The notes below the pieces were generated by a model. That model made no database searches. It was not told where the DNA came from and saw only the letters and a list, made by a program, of their open reading frames with translations. A stretch of DNA of 14,682 bases from an uncultured Asticcacaulis sp. (lineage in GTDB: Bacteria; Pseudomonadota; Alphaproteobacteria; Caulobacterales; Caulobacteraceae), in contig CAMLIY010000056.1 of NCBI GenBank assembly GCA_946480125.1, positions 1 to 14,682 on the forward strand, in the 5' to 3' direction. The translations under genes and the position numbers were made by a program. Shown here piece after piece: positions 6,936-10,184 of this stretch (within the stretch, counting starts at the first letter, position 1; the number at the start of each line of letters is the position of its first letter).

Positions 6936-7063
6936 ATCCACAGATTACACAGATTGCACAGATTTAAGAATGGCGCTTTGCGCCTATAAATCTTCGGCTG
7001 TGATATAGGCCATTAGCCGGTAAATGCACGAATTAATCTGTGCAATCTGTGTAATCTGTGGAT
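6936..7063 (+). repeat. Inverted-repeat element A built from CACAGATT units
   Basis: Two perfectly complementary 29-nt arms (6936-6964 and 7035-7063) flank a 70-nt spacer. Each arm is ATCC plus three ACAGATT units joined by the linkers AC and GC. Pairing extends outward, with a small bulge, through GAAAAAGG (6926-6933) and CCTTTTTC (7067-7074). Inside, GGCGC (6972-6976) and GCGCC (6980-6984) form a hairpin. Just outside the arms the left end reads GGAATCC and the right end, on the other strand, TTGATCC. The same two distinct ends recur in element B, so I assign the orientation (+) from them. It lies between the divergent hemB and the orphan gene at 7148. No coding capacity is seen inside. Confidence 0.85.
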
Positions 7064-7147
7064 CAACCTTTTTCTGCTTTTTGCTTCAAAAAGTCGACAA
7101 GATAGCCGTTTGCTTGTACCCATGACAAAGCATTGCATGGGGGATTT

Positions 7148-7600
7148 ATGAAAAAGCGTCCAGTTCTTTTGACTGTAATATGCCTCACAATAGGACTTGC
7201 AGCTTTGTTGACGTTAAATGCGCAGTTCAGGCAAACGGCCATCATACTGGGGCTGGTTGCTTATTCTGAAATTACCAAACCGAATGATGCCGTCACGCGC
7301 ACGATCCGGAACGGCAGCAATGAATGGGGAGCGGCGATAGCGCTGACGCCTAAGCCCTTTAAGACGGGCGATGCGGAAGACGACGTTCTTCGTCAATTAT
7401 CGAAGGCAAAATATACGACTGACTCGGACAAAGCCTTTTCATGGAGTAAGCCCAAATCATTTCCGGCGGACAGCCAATTTTATGAGAAGTCCGTAGAGGG
7501 GCTGCCTTGTTCTGTACATTTTGAAGTTGTTGTGAGATTTGACGATCAGCACCGCTTGATGGAAGCATGGGGCACAGAAGACGAGGCGGGTTGCCTGTAA
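7148..7600 (+). CDS. Orphan membrane-anchored or secreted small protein
   Basis: I do not recognise this 150-residue protein. Residues 5-23 are a hydrophobic signal or anchor after MKKR, and a second hydrophobic stretch spans about 29-40. The remainder looks globular and exported, with FKTGDAEDDVLRQLSKAKY (71-89), a YEKSVEGLPCSVHFEVVVRF strand region (112-131) and a C-terminal EAGCL. C121 and C149 could form a disulphide. The ATG at 7148 is supported by GGGGGA 4-5 nt upstream; an in-frame TTG at 7133 is less likely. The gene is visibly AT-richer than its neighbours (codons such as ATA, TTA and AAA are common), suggesting acquisition. It begins 84 nt beyond the TTGATCC end of element A and its stop directly abuts the stop of the convergent DUF1697 gene. 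Confidence 0.7.
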   Translation: MKKRPVLLTVICLTIGLAALLTLNAQFRQTAIILGLVAYSEITKPNDAVTRTIRNGSNEWGAAIALTPKPFKTGDAEDDVLRQLSKAKYTTDSDKAFSWSKPKSFPADSQFYEKSVEGLPCSVHFEVVVRFDDQHRLMEAWGTEDEAGCL

Positions 7601-8146
7601 TCAGGCTTCCAACTCTGTCGCCATATCCCGCAATGTCTCGACCGTATTGAGGTTGCGCGCCGTCATATCGGCCTTGATGGCGCGGCCGAGTTTCTCGACC
7701 ATCTTCGAGCGGCCGATGCCTTCCGGCGCATAGAGATACATCAATTCATCAGTAATTTCATAAGCTTCGCTGTCGGCCTTCAAGCTATCCAGCAAGTCAC
7801 GATCCACCTTTTCCGGCGGCGCCTTGAAGAAGAAAACATGCTGCGCCTTGCCCTTATGCTCTTGATCGCGGAACGGGTTTTCCGCCAGCACCTTTTCCAG
7901 ATGCTTTAGCGTGATCAGGAAGACAGATGGGCGAAACTCAAAGCCGGTCTCGACCAGATCGCCGATCAGCTTTTCCAACGCGGTTTCATCCAGATCAGAG
8001 CGAAACAGCACATTGCCGCTGGCGATATAGGTCTTCACATCGCTCAGGCCCGCCGCCAGCATGGCTTTCGTCAGTTCCTTCATCGGCAGTTTGTTATTGC
8101 CGCCGACATTGATGCCGCGAAACAGGCAAATCCAGACTTTCAACAT
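7601..8146 (-). CDS. DUF1697 domain protein
   Basis: A 181-residue cytoplasmic protein of the DUF1697 family, whose function is unknown. The signature N-terminus reads CLFRGINVGGNNKLPMKEL (7-25), followed by KTYIASGNVLFRSDLDE and later FRPSVFLITLKHLEKVLAENPF, HVFFFKAPP and LMYLYAPEGIGRSKM. Length and motif order match the family. The ATG at 8146 is preceded by GGAGGAC at good spacing; a TTG four codons upstream would put that ribosome-binding site inside the gene, so it is rejected. The gene is divergent from hemA across a 194-nt gap and ends flush against the stop of the orphan gene at 7148, leaving no room for a terminator. Confidence 0.9.
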   Translation of the reverse strand: MLKVWICLFRGINVGGNNKLPMKELTKAMLAAGLSDVKTYIASGNVLFRSDLDETALEKLIGDLVETGFEFRPSVFLITLKHLEKVLAENPFRDQEHKGKAQHVFFFKAPPEKVDRDLLDSLKADSEAYEITDELMYLYAPEGIGRSKMVEKLGRAIKADMTARNLNTVETLRDMATELEA

Positions 8147-8255
8147 GACGTCCTCCAAACTGCGACAATCTGCGCCGTCCTTCTTAGCAAAAACTCTGGA
8201 TATTTGAATGCATATGTCACAAAGTGGGTATCAATGTTGTCGGCAGGGTTATTTT

Positions 8256-8340: not shown

Positions 8341-9564
8341 ATGAACTATAATGCCGCTTTCGAGGCCGCTGTAGAAGCTGTTCGCGCCGAAGGGCGCTAT
8401 CGCGTGTTCGCTAACCTCAAGCGTCACGCCGGCCAGTTTCCGCGCGCCACCTGGATAAAGGAAGACGGCAGCGAGCAGGACGTCACTGTCTGGTGCTCGA
8501 ACGATTATCTCGGCCAGGGCCAAAATCCGGTCGTGATGCAGGCCATGCACGAAGCCATTGATGCGGTGGGTTCAGGATCGGGCGGCACGCGCAATATCTC
8601 CGGCACCACCTTCTATCACAACCAGCTTGAAGCCGAACTGGCCGACCTGCACCGGAAGGAAGCCGCGCTGGTTTTCACCTCCGGCTATGTCGCCAACGAA
8701 GCAACCCTGACCACACTCTACAAGATCCTGCCGGGCTTGATCATCTTCTCCGACGCGCTCAATCATGCCTCGATGATCGCCGGCATCCGCAATGGCGGCG
8801 GCGAACGCCATGTCTTCCGCCACAATGATTTGGCGCACCTCGAAGAATTACTCAAGGCCTCCCCTGCCAATGCGCCCAAGCTTATCGCCTTCGAATCCGT
8901 CTATTCTATGGACGGCGATATCTCCGACATCCACGGCACGGTAGCTCTGGCCAAAAAATACGGCGCCCTGACCTATATCGATGAAGTTCATGCGGTTGGC
9001 CTCTATGGCGAACGCGGCGCTGGTGTCGCCGAACGCGACGGCATTATGGGTGAGATCGACATCATCGAAGGCACGCTTGGCAAGGCGTTCGGCATGATGG
9101 GCGGCTATATCGCCGGCACCTCGGCCATGGTCGACGCTATCCGCCTGTGGGCCTCCGGTTTTATCTTCACCACCTCGCTGCCGCCCGCCGTCATGGCCGG
9201 CGCCGCCGCTTCGGTGAAGTACCTGAAAGAGCATAATGAAAAACGCATTGCTCATCAGGAACGCGCGCAATCCCTGCTGAAAAAGCTGCGCGCCGTTGGT
9301 ATCGCCACCTTCCCGACGCAGTCGCATATCGTGCCGGTTCTGGTGGGGAACGCGGTCCATTGCAAGATGGTTTCGGATATGCTGCTCAACGATTTCGGCA
9401 TCTATGTCCAGCCGATCAACTACCCGACCGTGCCGAAGGGCACCGAGCGCCTGCGCTTCACGCCGTCGCCGGACCATACCGACGAGATGATGGACCACCT
9501 GGTCGATTCGATGGACAAGCTGTGGACCATGTGCAATGTCGCCCGCCTGCCGGCTGTGGCGTAA
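8341..9564 (+). CDS. hemA: 5-aminolevulinate synthase
   Basis: This PLP enzyme condenses glycine with succinyl-CoA to give 5-aminolevulinate, the committed step of haem synthesis by the C4 (Shemin) route used in alphaproteobacteria. The chosen ATG at 8341 has GGAG 6 nt upstream and gives MNYNAAFEAAVEAVRAEGRY and a 407-residue protein. It also places the PLP lysine of EGTLGKAFGMMGGY at K248, the same number as in Rhodobacter capsulatus ALAS. An in-frame ATG at 8272 would add 23 non-conserved residues. Other landmarks are the glycine-binding WCSNDYLG, GSGSGGTRNISGT, SDALNHASMIAGI, FESVYSMDGD, TYIDEVHAVGLYG, and TERLRFTPSPDH near the end. The stop lies 1 nt from the stop of the convergent GxxExxY gene. 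It supplies the substrate of HemB, encoded about 1.4 kb away on the other strand. Confidence 0.97.
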   Translation: MNYNAAFEAAVEAVRAEGRYRVFANLKRHAGQFPRATWIKEDGSEQDVTVWCSNDYLGQGQNPVVMQAMHEAIDAVGSGSGGTRNISGTTFYHNQLEAELADLHRKEAALVFTSGYVANEATLTTLYKILPGLIIFSDALNHASMIAGIRNGGGERHVFRHNDLAHLEELLKASPANAPKLIAFESVYSMDGDISDIHGTVALAKKYGALTYIDEVHAVGLYGERGAGVAERDGIMGEIDIIEGTLGKAFGMMGGYIAGTSAMVDAIRLWASGFIFTTSLPPAVMAGAAASVKYLKEHNEKRIAHQERAQSLLKKLRAVGIATFPTQSHIVPVLVGNAVHCKMVSDMLLNDFGIYVQPINYPTVPKGTERLRFTPSPDHTDEMMDHLVDSMDKLWTMCNVARLPAVA

Positions 9565-9565
9565 G

Positions 9566-9940
9566 TCACAGAACAAACCTCTTGTGTTGCAGGCTGTAGG
9601 CGCCAAAGTTAAGCAATAGCGCTTTCTTATGCTGTGAGGCGCGCAGGTAGTTTATGACCTGTGCTTCTTCGTTACCGCTCAAGCTGGCAAGCGTTTTAAG
9701 TTCTATCAATAGATTGTCGTAGCAGAGAAAATCTACGCGGTAGGTGCAGTGCAGGAGTGTGCCTTTATAGCTAATCGGTAATGCGACTTCGCGCTTGAAT
9801 GAAATGCCATGTCGCGTGAGTTCGATGGCTAGGGCTTCCTGATAGACGTTTTCCAGAAAGCCTTGCCCAAGCGTACGGTGAACCTCCATCGCTGCGCCGA
9901 TGACAGCATAGGTTTCTGAATCTCTCACGTCCGCGTTCAT
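9566..9940 (-). CDS. GxxExxY family protein, PD-(D/E)XK nuclease-like
   Basis: A 124-residue protein of the GxxExxY family (PDDEXK_3 superfamily). The name-giving motif is G27-F-L-E30-N-V-Y33, followed by E35. The nuclease-type core is clear: D70 in YRVDFLCYD, then E80-L-K82 in LLIELKT, and a following helix with Q94 in AQVINYLR. These are the residues expected to bind metal in PD-(D/E)XK enzymes, so catalysis is plausible; no activity is established for the family as far as I know. The ATG at 9940 is preceded by AGGGGAG at ideal spacing. A longer frame reaching 9982 only translates the CACAGATT repeat and is not real. The start lies 17 nt from element B, and the gene reads away from it. It is AT-richer than hemA, on which it converges, which suggests a mobile origin. 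Confidence 0.88.
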   Translation of the reverse strand: MNADVRDSETYAVIGAAMEVHRTLGQGFLENVYQEALAIELTRHGISFKREVALPISYKGTLLHCTYRVDFLCYDNLLIELKTLASLSGNEEAQVINYLRASQHKKALLLNFGAYSLQHKRFVL

Positions 9941-9957
9941 GGCATCTCCCCTTATTG

Positions 9958-10184
9958 ATCCACAGATTGCACAGATTAACACAGATTAAGTAAGCAAGAG
10001 GATTAAGAGGAGAAAATGGATAGGTCTGCGCTCTGACGTGAGTTAGTGAATGTAGGCTTGCTTATTCTTTTGAGCGCTTCGCGCTCTTTAAGGAATGAGC
10101 CCTGCACTAAAAACACTATTAAAGATCAATTTTCTTAAATCCTTTTCCTTATTTAATCTGTGTTAATCTGTGCAATCTGTGGAT
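9958..10184 (-). repeat. Inverted-repeat element B built from CACAGATT units
   Basis: This fills most of the 300-nt gap between the GxxExxY gene and the small gene at 10241. Two perfectly complementary 32-nt arms (9958-9989 and 10153-10184) consist of ATCC and three ACAGATT units with linkers GC and AAC, then AA. Imperfect pairing continues inward for about 20 nt (GTAAGCAAGAGGATT against the complement of AATCCTTTTCCTTAT). The 163-nt spacer holds a hairpin, GAGCGC-TTC-GCGCTC (10072-10086). The outer ends are TTGATCC (left) and, on the other strand, GGAATCC (right), the reverse order of element A, so I assign strand (-). Read in that direction, B shares the interior 10-mer GATTTAAGAA (10132-10141, complement) with A (6961-6970). 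No open frame of note is inside. Confidence 0.85.

Follow-up and report, generated by a model that had tools for sequence, protein, structure and literature searches.

How did two short inverted-repeat elements come to lie beside AT-richer genes in an uncultured Asticcacaulis sp., and what do those genes have to do with the repeats? The elements, here called A and B, were read in a 14,682-nt stretch of DNA (contig CAMLIY010000056.1; the whole stretch is referred to as the window), in which an orphan gene lies beyond A and a gene of the GxxExxY protein family adjoins B. On balance we favour the view that A and B belong, as non-autonomous copies, to a selfish element family, similar to the repeat-and-transposase systems known as REPtrons, that is run by the PD-(D/E)XK nuclease GxxExxY; we infer that this nuclease drives their mobility. 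Copies of the family occur without the gene, nested in one another and, once seen, with another gene inside, and they come and go at given sites.

No inverted pair in the window other than A and B has arms of 20 nt or more that lie within 300 nt of each other. Scored as length minus 3 per mismatch, the arms of A reached 29 and those of B 38, against a best value of 15 from 40 dinucleotide shuffles of the window. The arms of A are 29 nt long and fully complementary, each with three ACAGATT units and ATCC caps; those of B are 47 nt long with 3 mismatches between them. In both elements the arms were predicted to pair end to end into a strong stem (RNA fold). A preliminary description had set out this shared architecture of units, caps, inner hairpin and interior 10-mer, and all of its letters and places were correct. 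The common 10-mer GATTTAAGAA (position 6961, forward strand, in A; 10132, reverse strand, in B) is itself weak evidence, because in A it overlaps the arm's own GATT. The AT-richer gene described beside each element was likewise found, with GC contents of 49.2% for the orphan and 49.7% for the GxxExxY gene compared to 58.4% for the whole window.

The preliminary description also stated that such repeats co-occur with GxxExxY genes. The association proved stronger than claimed, and its geometry differed: the gene usually sits inside the arms (95/140 loci) and not beyond one end of a complete element (16/140, the arrangement at B). The survey started from GxxExxY genes and took the best-scoring loci of each search, at most 30 each; 165 loci became 144 after removal of those with less than 85% profile coverage and of duplicate copies, and 140 after removal of four with less than 200 nt on a side. 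GxxExxY matches occurred in 48/249, 34/79 and 50/99 genomes of three phylum samples (47, 33 and 50 over the cut-off). Inverted arms, called where the upstream flank matched the reverse complement of the downstream one with a score of at least 15, enclosed 95 of the 140 genes, none of 113 neighbouring open reading frames (ORFs) and 17 of 500 mispaired flanks. Armed genes came from Asticcacaulis (20/25), from the phyla of genomes G001 (22/29), G027 (21/29) and G032 (18/28) and from other sources (14/28; window 0/1).

Each arm consists of about three direct units at 8-10 nt, of the general form CRCNNAN (CACAGAT, CGCAGAG, CGCAAAG, CACGGAA, CACGAAC and others), inverted between the two ends of the element. 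At least three such units were present in 77/95 armed elements compared to 183/4750 shuffles, and 234/273 intervals between units fell within 8-10 nt. Units pointed inward on both sides in 63/95 armed genes, in 13/45 below the arm score and in 0/123 control ORFs; they pointed outward on both sides in 6 and 2 genes of the same two groups. Spacers between units match between the arms in mirrored order, as expected if the arms copy each other or must pair. Matches numbered 29/39 and 15/23 in ACAGATT elements and 8/12 and 7/11 in CACGAAC elements, values that 0 and 1 of 1000 shuffles, respectively, reached. The gene-bearing form, arm, GxxExxY gene and arm, measures about 430-600 nt.

The sequence of the unit is characteristic of the nuclease clade. 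Protein identity correlated with unit identity over 2926 pairs (Mantel r 0.52) and also over the 1887 pairs below 45% protein identity (r 0.22), with 0/1000 permutations as high in either case. A tree of 77 proteins was built from a small number of columns. Classed by their last two positions, the units required 5 changes on it, compared to 32.9 after shuffling, and the 38 xxAG proteins all fell into one group (support 100/93). The ACAGATT-type nucleases of Asticcacaulis cluster with those of Planctomycetota and Latescibacterota and apart from the CACGAAC-type nucleases found in the same genus. This agreement shows the arms and the nuclease to be a single unit, even granting that the two are inherited together.

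The window's GxxExxY protein scored 140.8 bits against TIGR04256 (cut-off 35) and 134.2 bits against PF13366 (cut-off 22), with the residues E30/D70/E80-x-K82/Q94xxxY98 intact. In 68 sequences E30, D70, E80, K82, Q94 and Y98 are invariant, and the D...ExK active site of PD-(D/E)XK enzymes is kept. Cas4/RecB-type nucleases carry their motifs in the order E..D..ExK..QxxxY, and GxxExxY models as a minimal Cas4/RecB-like PD-(D/E)XK nuclease: its structure was predicted with a mean local confidence (pLDDT) of 94, and the nearest solved fold was SSO0001 (4ic1), which we take to be a Cas4. Homing endonucleases and Holliday resolvases gave middling fold scores, and no convincing solved relative was found by sequence (best E 0.44). 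No cysteine stands among the invariant or near-invariant columns of the 68 sequences. A domain scan of the window's protein returned PF13366 only, with no known transposase domain, and no H-x-H was seen in it by eye. GxxExxY has been described as a domain lying next to a possible cas4 gene, no function being given in the excerpted text, and no description of the element was found among the best-ranked literature matches, a scope that left out most subscription journals and bioRxiv.

Copies without the gene were abundant in Asticcacaulis taihuensis (G001), one of the genomes compared within the genus, together with G003, G018 and G024. Its genome holds the half pattern ATCCACAGATTNNACAGATT 41 times and the reversed control 0 times, and the same half pattern is present in 7/25 genomes of the genus. 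Eighteen paired elements were read in A. taihuensis, of which 17 are gene-less (113-231 nt) and one contains GxxExxY; B resembles three A. taihuensis elements at 75-78%. Half sites were also counted by unit in the 25 genomes of this one genus, the unit of each GxxExxY gene being assigned by eye (10 of the 12 matches in G004 and G011 were retrieved; G017 was assigned CACGAAC). Genomes with a matching GxxExxY gene held 52, 30, 14 and 2 (G017) CACGAAC half sites compared to a mean of 0.9 in the others, 41 and 32 for ACAGATT compared to 3.6, and 40 and 20 for CAGATAAG compared to 3.1. In G018, G023 and G024 the GxxExxY matches are partial only (L088-L090, L098, L099), yet gene-less elements are kept.

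Another gene can occupy the same position. In G003, CAGATAAG arms surround a GNAT acetyltransferase gene (PF00583; L185 13639-14210), and G024 carries the same arrangement at 95% (L374). This was the one wide armed pair found when such pairs were sought irrespective of gene in 45 Asticcacaulis stretches. The corresponding site in A. taihuensis holds a CAGATAAG element without a gene (L187 2350-2517), with flanks alike at 80% and 88%. The idea of an element plus cargo thus survives in changed form, with the cargo inside the arms.

Comparison of sites supports well that the elements are mobile, as the preliminary description had proposed. Two copies 17 kb apart in one genome (L101 and L105) are 97% alike over 471 nt in unrelated flanks; their common DNA starts with GGGCTGGTGGAATTAAACCACGG and both finish in CCGTGGTAAAATTCCAC, the stretch from the gene to the right arm being different. 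Elements from three genomes (L091, L093, L107) show 84% similarity that is confined to the element itself. The junction between trpD-like and trpC-like genes (PF00591, PF00218) was readable in 29 genomes from the 60 loci given: 20 carry a GxxExxY cassette or a remnant, one has 147 nt of other DNA, and eight are empty, with 2-29 nt beyond the point where the trpD alignment stops. At four of these loci (L231, L234, L240, L250) the left arm, read by eye, runs into the beginning of the GxxExxY reading frame, and the repeat units there may encode the first residues of the protein.

Sites were also found at which one element stands in place of another. The L101 site was bracketed in 8/15 loci, where three genomes have three different elements and five have none. 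Six sites could be compared between G003 and G024, which are 94-95% alike: the two genomes have the same element at four of them, a diverged copy at one and different elements at the sixth (L183/L175). Four of 19 A. taihuensis elements were bracketed by predicted collinear stretches in G018, and at two of these the element is absent, fairly cleanly at L188 and within diverged DNA at L189, without an exact junction in either case; a third has a different element and the fourth, the site of A, 909 nt of other DNA. At several loci of G013 and G004 (L334, L427, L435-L438), CACGAAC arms surround ACAGATT units. Some pairs of these nested elements are alike within the outer arms only; others, with flanks in common as well, may represent orthologs or duplications of a larger stretch. 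Taken together, the site comparisons, unrelated flanks and nested copies indicate that elements insert, copy, nest and replace each other. Carriage by phages, viruses or plasmids was considered and rejected: tblastn gave matches in 0/50,697 phage records and 8/72,556 plasmids, a degenerate-pattern scan of viral contigs gave one locus, and with so few matches the elements seem chromosomal.

The sites of A and B themselves were compared with relatives. The ALA-synthase-like region of the window (PF00155) has matches in 25/25 genomes of the genus, the best (89%) in A. taihuensis. There an ortholog of A lies in the same place, upstream of the same hemB-like gene (ALAD, PF00490), and the orphan is missing (L048); in G024 the orphan is present at 83% DNA identity and A is absent (L050); G003 has neither. 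The orphan, which matched nothing in Pfam or NCBIfam, is therefore not cargo of A. At the B site of A. taihuensis, GTAAG runs straight into CTTGCC, and one end of the block missing there is the stop codon of the window's GxxExxY gene. For that gene no arms of its own were found. Because the missing block ends at the stop codon, the simplest reading is that the gene's element lost its downstream end and now stands stranded next to gene-less B; the window's nuclease gene has probably lost its own arms in this way.

The preliminary description further proposed a polarity, with GGAATCC at one outer end and TTGATCC at the other. The order is indeed reversed between A and B (GGAATCC at 6933, forward, and 10181, reverse; TTGATCC at 9955, forward, and 7060, reverse). 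As a general rule the polarity failed in further copies, since one GGA and one TTG end occur together in only 3/20 paired elements: A, B and the ortholog of A in A. taihuensis. The outermost three bases at 40 ends were GGA (14), TTT (6), GTG (4), TTG (3) and others (13). These bases next to ATCC belong to a conserved purine-rich outer segment, approximately AAGAAAGG-KKW, at both ends, which is A/G-rich with mostly G at -4 and -3 (71 ACAGATT ends, orthologs kept in) and extends about 12-14 nt beyond the arms on each side of A. A similar segment, AAAARGGTTTTGA, borders CACGAAC ends (n=51 ends, orthologs kept in).

Features of elements A and B and their neighbouring genes in the window
Feature	Position	Strand	Description
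Element A	6936-7063		gene-less copy (MITE-like; miniature inverted-repeat transposable element); arms 6936-6964 and 7035-7063; three CACAGATT units per arm
Inner hairpin of A	6972-6984		GGCGC-TTT-GCGCC
Orphan gene beyond A	7148-7600	+	outside the element; occurs without A, and A without it
GxxExxY gene (TIGR04256, PF13366)	9566-9940	-	124 aa, full length
Element B	9958-10184		gene-less copy; inverted arms 9958-10004 and 10138-10184
Inner hairpin of B	10072-10086		GAGCGC-TTC-GCGCTC
Block of GxxExxY gene and element B	9566-10203		638 nt; without counterpart at the same A. taihuensis junction (L048)

An Rfam scan at the gathering score gave no match for A or B; its single match in the window was a sul1 RNA elsewhere (RF03058, 11949-12003, reverse strand), just upstream of a sulfate permease gene (PF00916). 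In G018 the gap between hemA and the DUF6898 gene (L049 2726-3190) holds a different ORF of about 135 aa with, by eye, a nuclease-like D..DVK stretch; this small ORF had no Pfam match, no repeat arms were seen there, and this gap resembles a hot spot. Asticcacaulis also has palindromic repeats of a second family, CTCCCC..GGGGAG, unrelated to the first (L050 and L051, upstream of hemB; L175 5891-5993; L187 16609-16764), which are present at the A site in relatives too.

We propose a model in which the autonomous form would be the GxxExxY gene between its two arms, with the protein recognising the units of its own arms. Units about one helical turn apart could allow several subunits to sit on one face of the DNA; alternatively, the protein may recognise a hairpin formed by the arms in single-stranded DNA. 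It would then cut at or near the outer end of the element, and host repair or recombination would complete insertion without a target duplication. Acting in trans, the nuclease would also serve copies with the same units and no gene, such as A and B. The GNAT-bearing element fits such action in trans, yet it also helps the idea that the nuclease is a passenger, and our confidence in the model is slightly lower on its account.

Several observations weigh against this nuclease-driven model, which rests on comparison of sequences and structural models. Because the survey began from GxxExxY genes, arms around other genes would escape it, and 45/140 sampled genes, the window's included, did not reach the arm score. 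The GNAT gene within arms means that the gene inside need not be a nuclease. The half-site comparison is driven by a few repeat-rich genomes of one genus with units assigned by eye, and it has exceptions: in G003, which has no GxxExxY match, two units occur at 18 and 17 half sites, G013 and G023 have 24 and 23 ACAGATT sites with no ACAGATT-unit gene among the retrieved loci, and G011 has 34 CAGATAAG sites with no CAGATAAG-unit gene among them. Joint inheritance of gene and arms partly explains the agreement of unit and protein, and the fold match could stem from the core that PD-(D/E)XK enzymes have in common. Unlike most transposons, 99 elements showed no excess of target duplications over mispaired flanks in a narrow and a wide scan, the exact element ends being uncertain by several nt.

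The same absence of excess duplications, together with the lack of a known transposase domain, would fit a history in which another, unlinked transposase or the host moved the arms and GxxExxY was a passenger between them. Gene-less copies outnumbering gene-bearing ones, copies in G003 without GxxExxY, and the one armed element with GNAT in its place all agree with it. A passenger, however, need not show arms in all three phylum samples tried, unvarying catalytic residues in 68 sequences or a unit sequence that tracks its clade. These findings weaken the passenger explanation, which we regard as rather unlikely.

GxxExxY might also be a nuclease that is useful to the cell or addictive (a regulator, toxin-like or a defence protein), spread by ordinary horizontal transfer, with arms that are regulatory sites or RNA stems and repeats that multiply by recombination. 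The strong stem of A and B and the trp operon arm that overlaps the reading frame point in this direction. Many copies with matching arms, however, have no gene to regulate, copies lie in unrelated flanks, different elements occupy the same gap, and only one of three proteins scanned matched a PADLOC model, weakly (E 0.0053); we consider this explanation improbable. The cassette first proposed, a polar repeat carrying a small gene beyond its TTGATCC end, gains something from the gene and B being missing as one piece in A. taihuensis, from the same layout at L087 in another genome of the genus, and from L003, L005 and L276, where complete elements flank the gene on both sides. It is refuted for A, where orphan and element occur apart. 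The end types are not general and the usual layout places the gene inside the arms; overall, this explanation is very improbable.

Under the nuclease-driven model, GxxExxY, an unexplained protein family, probably gains a role as the gene of a very small mobile element; if true, this would explain both the protein family and a class of short repeats. A broader proposal is put forward tentatively, at slightly less than even confidence: that GxxExxY elements form a previously undescribed class of mobile DNA in prokaryotes, spread over several phyla, in which a minimal Cas4/RecB-like nuclease moves DNA without a transposase, recombinase or Cas1, with helically phased arm units that diversified with the nuclease, seeding gene-less, other-gene and nested copies and replacing one another serially at the same sites. 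This would raise the question of how a lone RecB/Cas4-type nuclease moves DNA, and such minimal elements would bear on the origin of Cas4-like nucleases in integration systems.

Among known systems, PD-(D/E)XK homing endonucleases are lone small nucleases that act as engines of selfish elements. The homing endonuclease domain I-Bth0305I ranked 24 in the fold search; here no intron or intein context was seen and the ends are inverted tandem units. The remaining systems are compared as described in excerpts of the papers cited. All Cas4 family members are reported to have four conserved cysteines, for an Fe-S cluster, and GxxExxY, at about 120 aa and without conserved cysteines, differs from Cas4/RecB-type nucleases, including solo and mobile-element Cas4 (PMC5704561); the main text of that paper contains neither 'pfam13366' nor 'GxxExxY'. 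Like bacterial MITEs (PMC2229807), A, B and the 17 gene-less A. taihuensis elements are short, have terminal inverted repeats, lack a transposase and occur in multiple copies; unlike them, the related gene-bearing form encodes a nuclease without a transposase domain, and no excess of target duplications was seen at element ends that are uncertain by several nt. The CIR repeats of Caulobacter (PMC2229807) are intergenic repeats of ~110 nt in the same bacterial family, with two stem-loops joined by a linker and GANTC in a loop, whereas A and B pair end to end and show no such arrangement. The repeats of a Porphyromonas MITE (PMC4596501) are other than those found here. In REPtrons and TIRtrons a tyrosine transposase, RAYT or TIRYT, goes together with REP or TIR repeats (PMC3733652). 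As in these systems, a chromosomal gene acting on DNA is flanked by inverted repeats, gene-less repeat copies lie elsewhere in the genome, and repeat types are matched to enzyme types. Theirs is an HUH tyrosine transposase and their repeats are single GTAG/CGTC-tagged palindromes; GxxExxY is a PD-(D/E)XK nuclease lacking the HUH motif and catalytic tyrosine of the IS200 type, and tandem 8-10-nt units close the element. In the way they work, the elements described here come closest to REPtrons and TIRtrons, but their enzyme differs and they are members of neither.

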